NCBI RefSeq assembly: GCF_940670685.1
Contig: NZ_OW711693.1
Location: 2,046,001 to 2,110,000, forward strand
Source of the DNA: Anaeropeptidivorans aminofermentans
GTDB taxonomy: Bacteria > Bacillota > Clostridia > Lachnospirales > UBA5962
DNA length: 64,000 nucleotides
Reading direction: 5' to 3'
Each line of letters begins with the position of its first letter. Position 1 is the first letter of the stretch. This document shows, piece by piece, positions 1,441 through 63,826 of this stretch. The notes below the pieces were generated by a model. That model searched no databases, was not told the DNA's origin, and was given only the letters and a program-made list of their open reading frames with translations. The position numbers were made by a program, and so were the translations under genes.

Positions 1441-2174
1441 ATTGTATCTCATACAATAAACCACCTGCTATGCAGGTGGAGGGAAAATGCTTTAGCTTCA
1501 AGAAAAATACCCCCTGTGATAAAATAAAGTGGGTTTGCCAACCACAATTATTAGATCATAGGAGGTGTGTCCGATGGACAAAAATAGTTTATCACATACA
1601 ACCTGGGAATGTAAATATCATCTGGTATTTGCTCCAAAGTATCGAAGACAAATAATTTATGGAAGATTAAAGGCGGATATAGGAAAGATACTTAGAGAAT
1701 TATGTGAAAGAAAAGGTATAGAAATAATAGAAGCAGAATGTTGTAGTGACCATATACACATGTTAGTCAGAATACCACCTAAATATAGTGTATCAGAGAT
1801 AATGGGATATTTGAAAGGAAAGAGTTCTTTAATAATATTCGATAGACATGCAAATTTAAAATATAAATATGGGAATAGACATTTCTGGTGTAGAGGATAT
1901 TATGTTGATACAGTAGGTAAAAATGCGAAAAAAATAGAAGAATACATTAGAAATCAAATACAAGAAGATAAAGTAGCAGATCAAATTTCATTGTTAGAAT
2001 ATATTGACCCGTTTACGGGGGAGCCAGTGAAAGGAAATAAAAAATAAACCGCTTTAGCGGTTATTGGGAAGTAAATGCGGTTGGCAAACCGCTTCGATGC
2101 GTCCTCAGACGCATGCCAGTAAGAGCCCCTTATAGGGGCAGAGCAAACTACCGGCTAAGCCGGTAGTTATGATT
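1441..2174 (+). mobile_element. IS200-type insertion sequence, copy 1 (734 bp)
   Basis: Boundaries come from comparison with the inverted copy at 37002-37735: the two share sequence from 1441 to 2174 and diverge on both sides, giving 734 bp each. Features fit the IS200/IS605 group, which transposes as single-stranded DNA. There is one Y1 HUH transposase, no terminal inverted repeats, a subterminal hairpin at the left end (1461-1479, CCACCTGC/GCAGGTGG, loop TAT) and one at the right end (2146-2168, AACTACCGGC/GCCGGTAGTT, loop TAA). Further hairpins lie at about 1527-1543, 2047-2062, 2078-2095 and 2098-2140. There is no tnpB. The exact cleavage sites cannot be fixed because the target tetra- or pentanucleotide is not duplicated in this group. 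Confidence 0.92.
1574..2047 (+). CDS. tnpA: IS200/IS605-family transposase TnpA (Y1 HUH)
   Basis: 157 residues from ATG 1574, which has GGAGG at 1561-1565 at good spacing; the in-frame GTG at 1565 lies inside that RBS. The protein has the HUH metal-binding pair (H60 and H62 in DHIHMLV) and the catalytic tyrosine Y124 in EEYIRNQIQ. TnpA of this family cuts and rejoins single-stranded ends at the subterminal hairpins. The protein is identical to that of the second copy at 37129-37602, so both are probably intact and recently moved. A hairpin at about 1527-1543 lies just upstream of the RBS and may limit translation, as known for IS200. Confidence 0.95.
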   Translation: MDKNSLSHTTWECKYHLVFAPKYRRQIIYGRLKADIGKILRELCERKGIEIIEAECCSDHIHMLVRIPPKYSVSEIMGYLKGKSSLIIFDRHANLKYKYGNRHFWCRGYYVDTVGKNAKKIEEYIRNQIQEDKVADQISLLEYIDPFTGEPVKGNKK

Positions 2175-2251
2175 AAATAATTTTAAATTTTAATGAAATA
2201 ATATTATTGAGAATATATTTTTATTTTAAGCCCTATAGCGTTTTTATATCT

Positions 2252-3419: not shown

Positions 3420-3768
3420 TAAGGATTAATAATCAACAGAATTAACCTTATTGGGGCTGATGTAACTTCGTCCTGTGGCCCTATGCTCTGGGTGCATTCC
3501 GTATTGTAATAAAGGTAATTTCACTATGTTTAAGAAGGAAATCCGCATTTTCAAGTAATACAAAAATATACGGGTTTAGAGAACAGGACCGATGCGGGCT
3601 TCAGCCGCTGGGAATTGATATCTTTGCGTATTTATAGTAAATTTCTTATAAAGAAGTAACAAAAACCTATTCACTACAGATTCACCGTTACCAAACAAAA
3701 AACAAGTTTGATAACGATAAGAAAATGCTCACTTAAAAAGATTTGCAGGCTTGCGCCCAATGCTATTT
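3420..3768. other. Gene-free stretch after msrAB
   Basis: No ORF with a usable start and RBS is found on either strand. From 3633 the sequence matches the left arm of repeat family 1. At 3539-3560 there is a fragment similar to that family's core (AAGGAAATCCGCATTTTCAA). A small hairpin lies at 3693-3719 (CGTTA-CAAAC with GTTTG-TAACG). The stretch ends in the strong terminator at 3769-3812, so it could be the long 3' untranslated part of msrAB or an untranslated RNA. Confidence 0.5.
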
Positions 3769-5087: not shown

Positions 5088-5252
5088 CGTCACAGCTTTT
5101 TTCTTAACTAAATGACATTGGGCTTGCGCCTGCATCCTTTTCCAAGTTCGCGTAGTATAAAAACACGGACTTCTTTCGGAAATAGTATATTTTTGAATTC
5201 TCGCGAATATATGGTTTTATTACTGTTTAACTTTAAATTTACTATACATCAC

Positions 5253-11589: not shown

Positions 11590-11790
11590 CTTATATAGTA
11601 CATTAAGGTTTATTTCTAAGAAATAAATTTTAATTAAAGTAAAGCAAAGGCAAAGCCGCTATAAAAACTGTTCTCTATAATTCAAAAACACGGAGTTTCT
11701 TCGAAAACAGTATAATTTTGAATTATTTCGGATATATATTTTTTCAGGATTTATTTGCTTTACTATACTTGCTTTTAAATTTATAAGCTT
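11590..11790. repeat. Palindromic repeat, family 1, copy between murD and ftsW
   Basis: The core 11677-11726 (ATTCAAAAACACGGAGTTTC, then AGTATAATTTTGAAT) forms a hairpin and matches the cores at 5158-5200, 38320-38358, 53644-53689 and 63731-63780. Flanking arms AGTAAAGCAAAGGCAAAGCC (11638-11657) and GGATTTATTTGCTTTACT (11747-11764) pair. The outer ends are degenerate. It lies inside the mur/fts transcription unit. Confidence 0.6.
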
Positions 11791-19507: not shown

Positions 19508-19716
19508 TGCTAAAGCAAAACAAGATTAAAGTAGTAACAAAACCTGTTTCTCATAAACGGTTTAAATATATAAAAACGCTATATCTAAGCCATTCGTTGT
19601 CAACAAAGATGAAAAGAAGTTTGTTAACTTTACTTAGCTTCACTGTAGGTGTTTTCAGGTTCACTAAGTATAAAATATACAGTTTTTGCTACTGTGATTA
19701 CTTTGTTTCACTATAT
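19508..19716. repeat. Palindromic repeat, family 1, long variant
   Basis: Ends AAAGTAGTAACAAAACC (from about 19528) and TTTTTGCTACTGTGATTAC (to about 19702). The inside shares TCATAAAC(G/A)G, CTATATCTAAGCCATT and TTTTCAGGT(T/C)CACTAAG with the copy at 46098-46308, so these two form a longer sub-type of about 210 bp. It lies between pbpB and spoVD. Confidence 0.6.
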
Positions 19717-36992: not shown

Positions 36993-37001
36993 GAGCTTTT
37001 A

Positions 37002-37735
37002 AATCATAACTACCGGCTTAGCCGGTAGTTTGCTCTGCCCCTATAAGGGGCTCTTACTGGCATGCGTCTGAGGACGCATCGAAGCGGTTTGCCAACCGCA
37101 TTTACTTCCCAATAACCGCTAAAGCGGTTTATTTTTTATTTCCTTTCACTGGCTCCCCCGTAAACGGGTCAATATATTCTAACAATGAAATTTGATCTGC
37201 TACTTTATCTTCTTGTATTTGATTTCTAATGTATTCTTCTATTTTTTTCGCATTTTTACCTACTGTATCAACATAATATCCTCTACACCAGAAATGTCTA
37301 TTCCCATATTTATATTTTAAATTTGCATGTCTATCGAATATTATTAAAGAACTCTTTCCTTTCAAATATCCCATTATCTCTGATACACTATATTTAGGTG
37401 GTATTCTGACTAACATGTGTATATGGTCACTACAACATTCTGCTTCTATTATTTCTATACCTTTTCTTTCACATAATTCTCTAAGTATCTTTCCTATATC
37501 CGCCTTTAATCTTCCATAAATTATTTGTCTTCGATACTTTGGAGCAAATACCAGATGATATTTACATTCCCAGGTTGTATGTGATAAACTATTTTTGTCC
37601 ATCGGACACACCTCCTATGATCTAATAATTGTGGTTGGCAAACCCACTTTATTTTATCACAGGGGGTATTTTTCTTGAAGCTAAAGCATTTTCCCTCCAC
37701 CTGCATAGCAGGTGGTTTATTGTATGAGATACAAT
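37002..37735 (-). mobile_element. IS200-type insertion sequence, copy 2 (734 bp)
   Basis: Inverted copy of 1441-2174, same length and same transposase. Its left end (near 37735) directly abuts the T tract of the mgsA terminator, and its right end (37002) lies nine bases past the pfp stop. The same subterminal hairpins are present (37008-37030 and 37697-37715). The near-identity of the two copies indicates recent movement. Confidence 0.92.
37129..37602 (-). CDS. tnpA: IS200/IS605-family transposase TnpA (second copy)
   Basis: 157 residues from ATG 37602, identical to the protein at 1574-2047, with the HUH pair in DHIHMLV and catalytic Tyr124 in EEYIRNQIQ. The GGAGG box is at the same distance as in copy 1. 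Intact reading frame, so probably active. It transcribes towards pfp. Confidence 0.95.
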   Translation of the reverse strand: MDKNSLSHTTWECKYHLVFAPKYRRQIIYGRLKADIGKILRELCERKGIEIIEAECCSDHIHMLVRIPPKYSVSEIMGYLKGKSSLIIFDRHANLKYKYGNRHFWCRGYYVDTVGKNAKKIEEYIRNQIQEDKVADQISLLEYIDPFTGEPVKGNKK

Positions 37736-38274: not shown

Positions 38275-38386
38275 TATAGTAAAATAATTTAATTACAGTA
38301 ACAAAAGCCATTCACTAAAGACTCAAAATACAGATTTTTTTGGAAACAGTACATTTATTGCTCTCTAGCTTAAACTTCACCTATAT
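38275..38386. repeat. Palindromic repeat, family 1, truncated copy
   Basis: The left arm TATAGTAAAATAATTTAATT then CAGTAACAAAAGCC and the core 38320-38358 (ACTCAAAATACAGATTTTTT, GGAAACAGTACATT) match the family. The right arm is mostly lost. It lies between ilvB and mgsA. Confidence 0.55.
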
Positions 38387-42119: not shown

Positions 42120-42164
42120 TCTGTACCGGCAATTATAGTAAATTTAAAGCCATGCTTTTATCAG

Positions 42165-46097: not shown

Positions 46098-46308
46098 ATA
46101 GTAAAATAGCTTTAAGGCAGTAGCAAAATCCTATTTTTCATAAACAGCTTAACTATTATAAAAGCACTTATATTAAGCCATTTTCAGCCGACAAAAATGA
46201 AAGAATTTTTGTTGGCTATAGGGAAGCGTTCACCTGAAAACACTTTTTCAGGTCCACTAAGCATGAAATATACAGTTTTTGTTACTGTAATTAAATTATT
46301 TTACTATA
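46098..46308. repeat. Palindromic repeat, family 1, long variant (cimA-leuC spacer)
   Basis: Ends ATAGTAAAATAGCTTTAAGG at 46098 and TTAAATTATTTTACTATA up to 46308, which is one base from the cimA stop codon (46310-46312). It shares its interior with the copy at 19508-19716. A GACAAAAAT/ATTTTTGTTGGC hairpin is at its centre. No terminator tract is seen. Confidence 0.65.
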
Positions 46309-48014: not shown

Positions 48015-49391
<1,377 letters not shown>

Positions 49392-51251: not shown

Positions 51252-51417
51252 GAAAGCCTGTCTCCTTATTTTTTATTTATATTTAAGGATATTATAATAT
51301 ATTTTTATATGCTTTGCTACATTAAGAAATTTATTCTGCCGAAATCCGGCAAGCTAATTGTGCTAATCTATGATAAATTATGTTATACTATAAAAAAACA
51401 AAAAGGTGATTAAAATA

Positions 51418-53595
51418 ATGAAATCATTAATTATAGCAGAAAAGCCCTCTGTGGGACGGGATATAGCAAAGGTTTTAAAATGCAATAAAAAAGAAAACGG
51501 CTTTATGGAAGGCAATACTCATATTGTTACATGGGCCTTAGGGCATCTTGTAACCTTGGCAGACCCTGAAGCCTACGATGATAAATATAAGTCCTGGGAT
51601 ATAGACCATCTGCCCATCATTCCTGAAAAGCCTGAGCTTATCGTAATAAAGCAGACCTCTGCTCAGTTTCGGACAGTAAAGGCCCAAATTGGCCGAAAAG
51701 ACGTTTCGGAAATCATCATCGCAACCGATGCAGGCCGTGAAGGCGAGCTTGTGGCAAGATGGATTCTTGAAAAAGCCGGCAATAAAAAACCTGTAAAAAG
51801 GCTGTGGATTTCTTCCGTAACTGACAAGGCTATTTTAGAAGGCTTTAAGAATTTAAAAGACGGGAAAAACTATATTCCTCTTTATAATTCCGCAAAGGCA
51901 AGGGCCATTGCCGACTGGGTAGTGGGCATCAATGCCACAAGGGCATTAACTGCAAAGCATAATGCTCAGCTTTCCTGCGGAAGGGTTCAGACCCCTACCA
52001 TAGCCATTGTAAACGCTAAAGAAGAAGAAATCAGGTCCTTTAGGCCGAAGGATTACTACACGATAAAATTGAATTATAAAAACACCGATTTTACTTTAAA
52101 AAATAAAGACGGTTCCTTTCGTATCTTTGATAAAAATTACGCCGACGGGCTATTAATCACTTTAAAGGGTAAAGAAGCCGAAATAAAATCCATTGATAAA
52201 AAAAGACATTCTTTGAAAGAATCTGGGCTTTATGATTTAACTTTGCTCCAAAGAGATGCCAACAGGCTTTTTAATTTTTCAGCCAAAGAAACATTAAATA
52301 TTATGCAGTCTTTATATGAAAGGCATAAAGTCGTAACCTACCCCAGAACAGATTCAAAATATATCTCTCAGGATATTGTGCCCACGATACCTGAAAGGCT
52401 TAAGGCAATACGTTTCGGCGGATATAAAAAGTTCGTGGGAGAAATTCAGAAAAACGGCATAAAGGTAAGTAAATCCTTTGTAGATGATTCAAAGGTTTCC
52501 GACCACCACGCCATAATACTCACAGAGGAAGCTGCAAATATTTCGGATTTTACCGATAAGGAAATGAAAATATATGATCTTATAATTAAACGCTTTCTTG
52601 CAGTCTTCTACGCCCCTTATGAATATGATGAAATGACTGTAACAGCTTCTTGCTCCGGTGAAACTTTTATAGCAAAGGGCAAAAATATAATTTCCTTAGG
52701 CTATAAAGAAATTTACGGAAAAGAGCTTAAAGAGGAAGACAGCGAAAGCGATTTAAAAGACCAGCTTATGCCAACCTTTGAAAGAAGCGAAAAATTCACC
52801 TTGCAAAGATTGCAGATGGATACAGGAAAAACAAAGCCTCCTGCCTATTTTACCGAAGGAACTTTACTTGCCGCCATGGAAAATCCAAAGGCTTATATAA
52901 AGTCTTCCGATAAGGAAATATCAAAAACCCTTACGGAAACGGGAGGCCTTGGAACCGTTGCAACGAGAGCCGATATCATCGACAAGCTTTTTTCAAACTT
53001 CATGCTTGAAAAAAGAGGAAATTCCATATTTGTAACATCAAAAGGAAAGCAGCTTCTCAGTCTCGCCCCTAAGGATTTGAAAACCCCTGATTTGACAGCC
53101 AAATGGGAACTTGAGCTTAATAAAATAGCCGAAAATAAGCTCAATAAAGATGTATTTTTAAGCGAAATAAACGAATATACGAGAAAAATAATAAAAGAAA
53201 TAAAAACCTCCGACGGAAAATTCCGCCATGATAATATTACAGGGAAAAAATGCCCGGAATGCGGGAAATTTCTGCTGGAAGTCAATGGGAAAAAGGGTAA
53301 AATGCTTGTCTGCCAGGACAGAGAATGCGGATACAGAAAATCCATATCCTTTAATTCAAATACAAGATGCCCTGAATGCCATAAAAAAATGACAATTACA
53401 GGAGAAGGCGCAGACAGGAGATATATCTGCTCCTGCGGATTTAAAGAAAAGGTAGACGCCTTCCACGAGAAGAGAGCATTAGAAGGAAATAAGATGTCTA
53501 AAAAGGATATTGATAAATACCTGAACAAACTAAATAAAGATGAAAAGCCGGAAAATTCCGCAATCGCCGATGCCTTAAAGGGGCTTAAGCTATAG
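51418..53595 (+). CDS. topB: DNA topoisomerase III
   Basis: 725 residues from ATG 51418 (AAAGGTG nine bases upstream; the GTG at 51406 is inside that site). TOPRIM domain IIAEKPSVGRDIAKVLK with ATDAGREGELVARW, active-site tyrosine in VVTYPRTDSKYIS, and QLSCGRVQTPTIAIV. The C-terminus has two zinc-ribbon-like parts (CPECGKFLLEV with CQDRECGY, and CPECHKKMTI with CSCGF). Type IA enzyme that decatenates DNA. Some clostridial copies come from conjugative elements, but nothing around it shows transfer. A 139-bp repeat begins one base after its stop. Confidence 0.95.
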   Translation: MKSLIIAEKPSVGRDIAKVLKCNKKENGFMEGNTHIVTWALGHLVTLADPEAYDDKYKSWDIDHLPIIPEKPELIVIKQTSAQFRTVKAQIGRKDVSEIIIATDAGREGELVARWILEKAGNKKPVKRLWISSVTDKAILEGFKNLKDGKNYIPLYNSAKARAIADWVVGINATRALTAKHNAQLSCGRVQTPTIAIVNAKEEEIRSFRPKDYYTIKLNYKNTDFTLKNKDGSFRIFDKNYADGLLITLKGKEAEIKSIDKKRHSLKESGLYDLTLLQRDANRLFNFSAKETLNIMQSLYERHKVVTYPRTDSKYISQDIVPTIPERLKAIRFGGYKKFVGEIQKNGIKVSKSFVDDSKVSDHHAIILTEEAANISDFTDKEMKIYDLIIKRFLAVFYAPYEYDEMTVTASCSGETFIAKGKNIISLGYKEIYGKELKEEDSESDLKDQLMPTFERSEKFTLQRLQMDTGKTKPPAYFTEGTLLAAMENPKAYIKSSDKEISKTLTETGGLGTVATRADIIDKLFSNFMLEKRGNSIFVTSKGKQLLSLAPKDLKTPDLTAKWELELNKIAENKLNKDVFLSEINEYTRKIIKEIKTSDGKFRHDNITGKKCPECGKFLLEVNGKKGKMLVCQDRECGYRKSISFNSNTRCPECHKKMTITGEGADRRYICSCGFKEKVDAFHEKRALEGNKMSKKDIDKYLNKLNKDEKPENSAIADALKGLKL

Positions 53596-53596
53596 A

Positions 53597-53735
53597 TATA
53601 GTAAATTTAAAGTTAAACAGCAGCAAAGCCGTATATTCACACAGGCTCAAAAATGTACCGTTTCCGAAGGAAATCCGTGTTTTTGAGCCTGATGGGAATA
53701 GGCTTTTGCTGCTTCTTTATATGAAATTTACTATA
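53597..53735. repeat. Palindromic repeat, family 1, intact 139-bp copy
   Basis: Inverted ends TATAGTAAATTTAAAGTT... (left) and ...ATATGAAATTTACTATA (right) pair over about 35 bases, including AGCAGCAAA/TTTGCTGCT. The core hairpin 53644-53689 has stem GGCTCAAAAA/TTTTTGAGCC around GTTTCCGAAGGAAATC. The same length as the copy at 63688-63826 but in the opposite orientation. It begins one base after the topB stop codon. Confidence 0.75.
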
Positions 53736-53804: not shown

Positions 53805-54275
53805 TTATTGAAGATTTCTAATTTTAAATTCCTTTTCAGCCTGTCGTTTCACATCTTTTTTCGCAATGGTTTCTCTCTTGTCGTAGAGCTTCTTTCCCCG
53901 GGCTATGGCAATGTCTATTTTCACAAGGCTTTTAAGAATATAAATCCTCGTAGGTACTATTGTAAAGCCGTCGAGAGCAACGGCCCCCATAAGCTTATTG
54001 ATTTCTTTTTTGTGAAGCAGAAGCCTTCTTTTTCTCAAAGGGTCCTTATTGAATATATTGCCGTGTTCATAAGGGCTTATATGCATGTTATATACGAAGG
54101 CTTCGTTATTTTCTATTTTTACGAAGCTATCCTTTAAATTGCATTTGCCTTGCCTTAGGCTTTTTACCTCTGTTCCTATAAGCTCTATTCCTGCTTGAAA
54201 AGTTTCCTCTATAAAATATTCATGATATGCTTTTTTATTTTGTGCTATTAATTTTACTCCTGTATTCTTAACCAT
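53805..54275 (-). CDS. smpB: SsrA-binding protein
   Basis: 156 residues: [51 protein letters not shown] and the basic tail [19 protein letters not shown]. SmpB binds tmRNA and brings it to stalled ribosomes. GGAGG precedes ATG 54275. The ssrA gene itself is not seen nearby. Confidence 0.98.
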
Positions 54276-61698: not shown

Positions 61699-63588
61699 TT
61701 ACTGTATCCTTTTAAACATTTTTTCTATTTCGTATTTTTTAAGCTCTATTACCGTAGGCCGTCCATGAGGGCAGGTAAATGGATTTTCAAGCTTTAAAAG
61801 CTCATCTATAAGATTTTTCGCCTCCATATAGGAAAGCCTGTCGTTTCCCTTTACGGCAGCTTTACAGCTCATCATGGCAACAGCATCTATTTTAGTATCG
61901 TATACATTGTCAAGCTTTGAGCCTTCCTCCGAAAGCATGTCTATAATATCCATAAAAAACTTAGGGCTTGCAGGGTCTTTTAAAATAAAAGGTACTGCCA
62001 AAAGAGCAAAGCTTTCATCGTCAAAGGCCTCTATTTCAAATCCAAATTCCTCAAAAAGCGCCATATTGTTCATAAGAACTTCCCTTTCTTTCTGAGATAA
62101 ATCTACCCCTAAAGGGCTTAGAAGCCTTTGAGAAATAATATCCTTGGATTTAAACTTTTTCATAAGCTTCTCAAATAAGACCCGCTCGTGAGCCGCATGC
62201 TGGTCTATGAGAAAGATGCTTTCGTTCTGCTCCACAATCCAGTATGTATTAAAAAACTGACCTATAATCCTGAAATTATTAAAAAAAGGCTTAACATAGG
62301 GTTCAGGTGCAGGCTTTTCATTTTCCTCTTTAGAGGAATAGTACTTAGGCTGAGCTTCTCTTACAAAGCTTCCTTCCTGCTCTTTATTTTCTTTGTAAAT
62401 ATCCTTTACAATTTCACTGATGTTTATGGAATGCCGGGGCTTTTCTTCTTTATAATAGTCTGCTTCTTTTTCGTTATTATCAATATTTAGTAAGGGGCTG
62501 TTATAAACTTTATTATTATCTTTATGATAATTCTCAATTTGATAAGAGCTTTCGGCAAAAGGATTTTTCGTGGTTTTAACCTCGTAGCTCGGTATTAGGT
62601 TCTCCTTTTTTAAGGCAGTATCTACCGCCTCAAAAAACAAATCAAATATCCGTCTTTCGTCGCTGAATCGTACCTCAAGCTTCGTCGGATGAACATTGAC
62701 GTCTACTAGCCTTGGGTTTATGGTAAGGTTCAAAACAAAAACGGGAAACTTTCCTATAATTATTTTCGTTTTATAGGCTTCTTCCACGGCAGACTGAATA
62801 ATATCTGATTTTATAAAACGGCCGTTAATAAAAATATTACCGTAGCTTCTGTTGCTTCTGTTGATTTCAGGGTGGCAGATATAGCCTTCTATTTTAAAAT
62901 CGTCTTTTGAATGCTCTACTTTTATAAGCTTTTTAGCCACGTCCTTACCGTATACGTTGAATATAACAGTCTTTAAGTCGCCGTTTCCGTTGGTATATAA
63001 TATTTCCGAATCATTTACAACATACCGGAAGGAAATATGAGGGTGGCCTAAGGCTACTTTGTTCATAATATCCGAAATATAGCCGCTTTCAGTTCCCGGC
63101 TTTTTCAAGAATTTGCGCCTTGCAGGCGTATTGAAAAATATATTTCTTACCTTTATGGTAGTTCCGTCGACAGCACCGATATCCTGCTCGGCCGTTACTT
63201 TGCCGCCTTCTATTTCAAGGCGCTTTGCCGTAATCTGAGAAGGAGTTTTTGTAATAATCTCAATTTGTGAAACGGAAGCAATAGAAGAAAGCGCCTCTCC
63301 TCTGAAGCCTAAGGTCATTACCCTTTCCAAATCGTCCATGTTTGAAATTTTGCTTGTGGCATGGCGCATAAAGGCCGACAAAACCTCATCCGAAGGAATA
63401 CCGCCTCCGTTATCGCTTACCCGTATGAGGGAAATACCCCCTTCTTTGGTTTCGACGGTAATGCTTTTGGCTCCTGCGTCTATGGAATTTTCCACAAGCT
63501 CTTTTACTACGGAGCTTGGTCTTTCCACCACTTCACCGGCAGCTATTTGGTTTATTATATTGTCTTCCAATATCCTTATATTATCCAT
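61699..63588 (-). CDS. mutL: DNA mismatch repair protein MutL
   Basis: 629 residues. GHKL ATPase: NSIDAGAKSITVE, RVSDNGGGIPSDE, HATSKI, GFRGEALSSIAS. The C-terminal domain carries the endonuclease motif DQHAAHERVLFEKL, plus the downstream SCKAAVKGND and FTCPHGRPTVIEL, so this MutL can nick DNA itself, as in bacteria without MutH. The linker (about 335-430) is polar and disordered. It lies after mutS in the usual order. Confidence 0.97.
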   Translation of the reverse strand: MDNIRILEDNIINQIAAGEVVERPSSVVKELVENSIDAGAKSITVETKEGGISLIRVSDNGGGIPSDEVLSAFMRHATSKISNMDDLERVMTLGFRGEALSSIASVSQIEIITKTPSQITAKRLEIEGGKVTAEQDIGAVDGTTIKVRNIFFNTPARRKFLKKPGTESGYISDIMNKVALGHPHISFRYVVNDSEILYTNGNGDLKTVIFNVYGKDVAKKLIKVEHSKDDFKIEGYICHPEINRSNRSYGNIFINGRFIKSDIIQSAVEEAYKTKIIIGKFPVFVLNLTINPRLVDVNVHPTKLEVRFSDERRIFDLFFEAVDTALKKENLIPSYEVKTTKNPFAESSYQIENYHKDNNKVYNSPLLNIDNNEKEADYYKEEKPRHSINISEIVKDIYKENKEQEGSFVREAQPKYYSSKEENEKPAPEPYVKPFFNNFRIIGQFFNTYWIVEQNESIFLIDQHAAHERVLFEKLMKKFKSKDIISQRLLSPLGVDLSQKEREVLMNNMALFEEFGFEIEAFDDESFALLAVPFILKDPASPKFFMDIIDMLSEEGSKLDNVYDTKIDAVAMMSCKAAVKGNDRLSYMEAKNLIDELLKLENPFTCPHGRPTVIELKKYEIEKMFKRIQ

Positions 63589-63687: not shown

Positions 63688-63826
63688 TATAGTAAATTTT
63701 TTATAAAGCAGTAACAAAAACCAATTCTTTAAAAACATAAAAATACGGATTTCCTTCAAAAGCAGTACGTTTTTGAGTCTATAGGCATATACGGTTTTGT
63801 TACTGTTTAATTTTAAACTTGCTATA
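63688..63826. repeat. Palindromic repeat, family 1, intact 139-bp copy (mutS-mutL spacer)
   Basis: Starts TATAGTAAATTTTTTATAAA and ends TTTTAAACTTGCTATA. Inner blocks GTAACAAAAACC and GGTTTTGTTAC pair. The core 63731-63780 carries ACGGATTTCCTTC and AGTACGTTTTTGAG, the reverse complement of the core at 53644-53689. The spacer holds no terminator, so mutL is read through it. Confidence 0.75.

Follow-up and report, generated by a model that had tools for sequence, protein, structure and literature searches.

The 64,000-nucleotide stretch of Anaeropeptidivorans aminofermentans DNA analyzed here (the window) contains two full-length copies of a 139-bp non-coding element, referred to as family 1, and both lie in opposite orientation exactly where an earlier note on this DNA had placed them. 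The first copy (53597..53735, plus strand), which is close to the consensus and 97% identical to other copies, immediately follows a topoisomerase gene (51406-53595), starting right behind its stop codon, and is convergent with smpB (53805-54275). The second copy (63688..63826, minus strand) is located upstream of mutL (61699-63588, minus strand) and has diverged, with 86% identity to its nearest copy. The element has near-perfect terminal inverted repeats (TIRs) of 12 bp and extended ends of 28 bp. In the first copy, the left end (53597..53624, plus strand) has the bipartite form TATAGTAA-N14-AGCAGC, a putative transposase-binding end, and the right end (53708..53735, minus strand) carries the bipartite repeat in inverted form. 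The TA target site would correspond to 53597..53598, with its duplicate at 53734-53735, as deduced from nested insertions of sister copies (see below). Both copies have TATAGTAAATTT ends. The second copy has decayed: one core flank reads ACATAAAAAT instead of CTCAAAAA, and one end reads TATAGCAAGTTT. The computed fold of the first copy has -55.5 kcal/mol (z -9.2 versus shuffles; z about -9 to -10 when computed as RNA or DNA), and the second copy folds less well (z -1.9 on one strand and -5.0 on the other).

Further repeats of this kind are spread over the window. All six intervals previously listed as related or decayed copies (5158-5246, 11590-11790, 19508-19716, 38275-38386, 46098-46308, and 49181-49275) coincide with interspersed repeats, which belong mostly to sister families. 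They comprise a truncated or composite copy of a miniature inverted-repeat transposable element (MITE) with a family 1 end (5103..5246, minus strand), a decayed internal MITE fragment (11635..11767, minus strand) and, with no strand assigned, a copy of the ~231-bp sister family (19511..19715), a decayed MITE fragment (38275..38367), another ~231-bp copy with TATAGTAAAATA ends (46098..46308), and a copy of the ~107-bp sister family with a TATAGTAAATTTGCTTTTC end (49181..49286). That list lacked a truncated copy at 3633..3758 (minus strand), which belongs to the 231/341-bp sister families and has a family 1 end. The end fragment claimed at 42134 is a mere 16-base match and is unsupported as a copy. 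The window also holds a T-box leader (Rfam RF00230; 49981-50211, minus strand) upstream of the gene region for the small subunit of acetolactate synthase. At 256-1362 it has a domain of the Outer membrane efflux protein (OEP) type, although the genome appears to be a Clostridia genome.

A scan of the whole 3.76-Mb genome for further copies, as proposed in the earlier note, revealed a dispersed family: the exact 12-base end TATAGTAAATTT occurs 513 times (255 + 258), compared with three occurrences of a reversed-pattern control. A DNA search with the 139-bp query gave 522 candidates at first look, and the best 40 matches extended over all or almost all of the query at 92-100% identity. Since exact ends exceed the control to this extent and the best matches are so similar, chance is excluded. 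Elements bounded by family ends were then clustered in two genome samples plus the window (864 kb, about one quarter of the genome). This census yielded 74 elements of about 139 bp, accompanied by sister families of about 231 bp (18 elements), 82 bp (6), 106 bp (5), 107 bp (5), and about 341 bp (4); the 82-bp form corresponds to the 139-bp form minus its middle. Scaled up from this sample, family 1 would comprise roughly 300 copies. Non-coding repeats with a depth of at least 5 account for 8.1% of the 864-kb sample, an upper-range figure obtained with permissive scoring. A repeat of another sort, a tandem array with units of about 243 bp that are 82-89% alike, was observed at genome positions 2931614-2933046 (L077 11614-13046). 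The search for the 139-bp sequence in 38 relatives led to matches in its own genome only, plasmid and phage collections gave no match, and a literature search on the TIR string and on Defluviitaleaceae repeats returned nothing relevant.

All families have one end in common, which consists of TATAGTAA, fourteen free bases, AGYARC, and then AAA. Allowing at most one mismatch, TATAGTAA-N14-AGYARC is present 631 times in the genome (303 + 328) and not once in the control. Counts in 391 further genomes from the order are at background in almost all cases, and those of four (G005, G041, G018, and G015) lie above it. When named genomes other than the own one were searched for the end in a 21-base version, it was detected in the Defluviitaleaceae MAGs WRAW, WRBA, and WRBF (the records G041, G005, and G018), as well as in one Oscillospiraceae MAG; the NCBI taxonomy places Defluviitaleaceae within Lachnospirales. 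In these MAGs the bipartite ends bound palindromic MITEs of about 104-264 bp. The Defluviitaleaceae MITEs resemble those described here in their bipartite ends and palindromic bodies, but differ in their interiors (108, 162, and 164-264 bp), number only 5-25 ends per genome, and gave no match to the family 1 profile. Outside the Defluviitaleaceae records, a MITE of about 104 bp with the same bipartite ends was seen in an Oscillospiraceae MAG (L172 1252-1356).

The family has been mobile in the past. Element flanks were joined with one TA kept, and the joined site was compared with the rest of the sample. At least eight copies are nested inside other repeats whose uninterrupted homologues, which are homologous, not identical, are 81-90% identical and ungapped at the junction, with exactly one TA duplicated. 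They include an 82-bp copy (genome 3441608-3441689; homologue 90% identical, target GTTATC) and copies of the 139-bp class at genome 411551, 369470, and 2916653 (homologues 81-86% identical). These junctions show that the elements jumped into TA and that exactly these 2 bp were duplicated, a target duplication of the kind that the earlier note had advised to look for. No identical pair exists among 96 distinct copies, a set that combines sampled with best-scored copies and so represents part of the genome, and only nine of the 96 are at least 98% identical to another copy. The family shows no sign of very recent activity, and given the lack of identical pairs, recent jumping is unlikely.

A transposase gene with matching ends, likewise suggested as a check, was not found in the own genome, but was found in relatives. 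In the own genome DDE_3 gave no match, DDE_Tnp_1 was absent, and the searches for an IS630 transposase and with a related IS630 transposase as query led to no credible match and no match, respectively. The best weak IS630 matches were read by eye, from their translation, as remnants of IS3-type transposases, and a further weak match is located in an unrelated coding sequence. Two IS3-type transposase remnants lie side by side at genome 1305497-1307089 (L086). In relatives, the same end with the same spacing flanks IS630 genes (DDE_3 or NF033545 matches), namely in G015 at L121/L194, with TATAGTAAGATGTTCTTGAAAAAGTAAC type ends at both flanks, and at L199 (1078 bp), and in G038 at L188 (886 bp). 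Further G015 loci have single ends, and the shuffled-sequence control for ends flanking IS630 genes gave 1 in 84 kb. At L121/L194, L199, and L188 a TATAGTAA-like outer block, fourteen bases, and AGTAAC flank a DDE_3 transposase; these elements differ from the MITEs in that they encode a transposase and in their interior and the bases between the blocks, and the relatives' IS630 elements have TATAGTAA plus AGTAAC, but not the whole TATAGTAAATTT. Because the searches of the host genome yielded no IS630 transposase, the helper is deduced from these relatives, which belong to other families of the same order. A MITE helper in the same genome is usual but not required, and helpers are often lost.

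TIRs, the exact TA duplication, hundreds of dispersed copies, and ends as in the IS630 elements of relatives agree with the earlier description as a non-autonomous, MITE-like family, and the family is without coding capacity, as was also stated there. We therefore regard the 139-bp element, with a probability of about 0.9, as a MITE derived from an IS630 (Tc1/mariner-type) insertion sequence, and we infer that an IS630 transposase of the host lineage moved these elements. Transposases of the Tc1/mariner/IS630 type use TA targets only, and the ISY100 transposase binds its ends via two helix-turn-helix motifs (PMC2170065). By analogy, the two conserved blocks of the end may represent two transposase contact sites.

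Other helpers have to be weighed against this assignment. Within the sampled part of the genome, Y1 is the one transposase type that was seen intact: the window has two IS200-like TnpA genes, and the sample holds two further IS200-like copies. This would suit the REP-like alternative of the earlier note, i.e., a REP/BIME-like family mobilized by a Y1 transposase of the IS200 type. However, the IS200-like elements, including those of the window, have unrelated ends with hairpins of their own, and the repeats possess terminal inverted repeats and TA duplications. REPs are not known to have terminal repeats with a 2-bp target duplication, and Y1 single-strand transposition (IS200/IS605) makes neither terminal inverted repeats nor TA duplications. 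This origin appears extremely improbable. A helper from another DDE family with a TA target, e.g., an IS427-type IS5 element, could be considered, since some groups of the IS5 family likewise produce short duplications; the absence of DDE_Tnp_1 from the genome and the occurrence of the bipartite end on IS630 genes make it very unlikely. As for the IS200-like elements themselves, the two in the window (1441-2177 and 36999-37735; Y1_Tnp, 160 aa) are 99.9% identical, another type is found at genome 503801 and 2915692, and all four copies adjoin inverted-repeat, terminator-like hairpins.

The stable fold also raises the question of a domesticated regulatory or RNA element, whose hairpin would be kept for transcripts (stability, RNase III processing, or termination). 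With genes predicted by a simple codon-usage caller, 66 of the 69 near-full copies lie between genes, two in predicted genes, and one at an edge, compared with 66% of random TA sites inside genes. Intergenic copies are found between codirectional (48), convergent (11), and more rarely divergent genes (7), a distribution in keeping with such a role. Moreover, compensatory double changes are twice as frequent as in column shuffles (151 versus 75 +/- 6.5), shuffles that ignore relatedness; subfamily inheritance and arm-to-arm correction of the palindrome can, however, also yield such changes. Departures at Watson-Crick pairs, counted on the fold of the consensus sequence (the RNAalifold consensus of 96 copies is poor), comprise 214 G-U and 181 A-C pairs; as G-U barely exceeds A-C, neither strand's RNA is favoured. 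The orientation relative to codirectional genes is without bias (24:24), and an Rfam search with the element gave no match. We thus consider an RNA function improbable, and ascribe the hairpin to the nearly inverted-repeat body of the element. Copies would persist mostly between genes because selection removes insertions in genes.

The known system that comes closest is the RUP element (repeat unit of pneumococcus) together with IS630-Spn1. RUP has about 107 bp and over 100 copies, and is alike in its intergenic location, TA target, and IS630-like ends (PMC2229807, PMC3049150). In contrast to RUP, the family described here has another sequence and length, several sister families, and more copies, and no IS630 helper was found in the host genome. 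The Correia/NEMIS elements of Neisseria are likewise small, with TIRs and TA at the termini, occur in long and short forms that differ by an internal segment, and give long-stem transcripts (PMC2229807); the likeness is one of description, and the present family is without sign of strand-specific RNA selection.

According to the IS630 reading, a transposase supplied in trans would bind both 28-bp bipartite ends, with the outer TATAGTAA at the cleavage site and the inner AGYARC block, excise the MITE, and join it to a TA dinucleotide, which would thereby be duplicated. The helper was probably lost or present transiently, and the swarm may now be decaying. More tentatively, and with considerable doubt, we suggest that the several MITE families of this genome (a few hundred copies, about 8% of the DNA in the sample) form an orphaned swarm: all would have depended on one bipartite IS630 end and expanded with a helper that has since disappeared, and the palindrome would be kept at the DNA level, by arm-to-arm correction or as a hairpin needed for transposition, and not by RNA function.

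The family is a new, very abundant case of a known kind, the RUP-like MITEs of the IS630/Tc1-mariner type; unusual are the non-coding repeat load, about 8% of the sample, and the missing helper. With it, the Clostridia gain a well-bounded and very abundant family of IS630 MITEs, whose clear bipartite end has been conserved across MITEs and IS630 elements from different families. It also provides an example of a large MITE load seemingly outlasting its transposase. Since MITEs account for much of the DNA between the genes in this genome, stretches of this sort should not be taken for regulatory RNAs.
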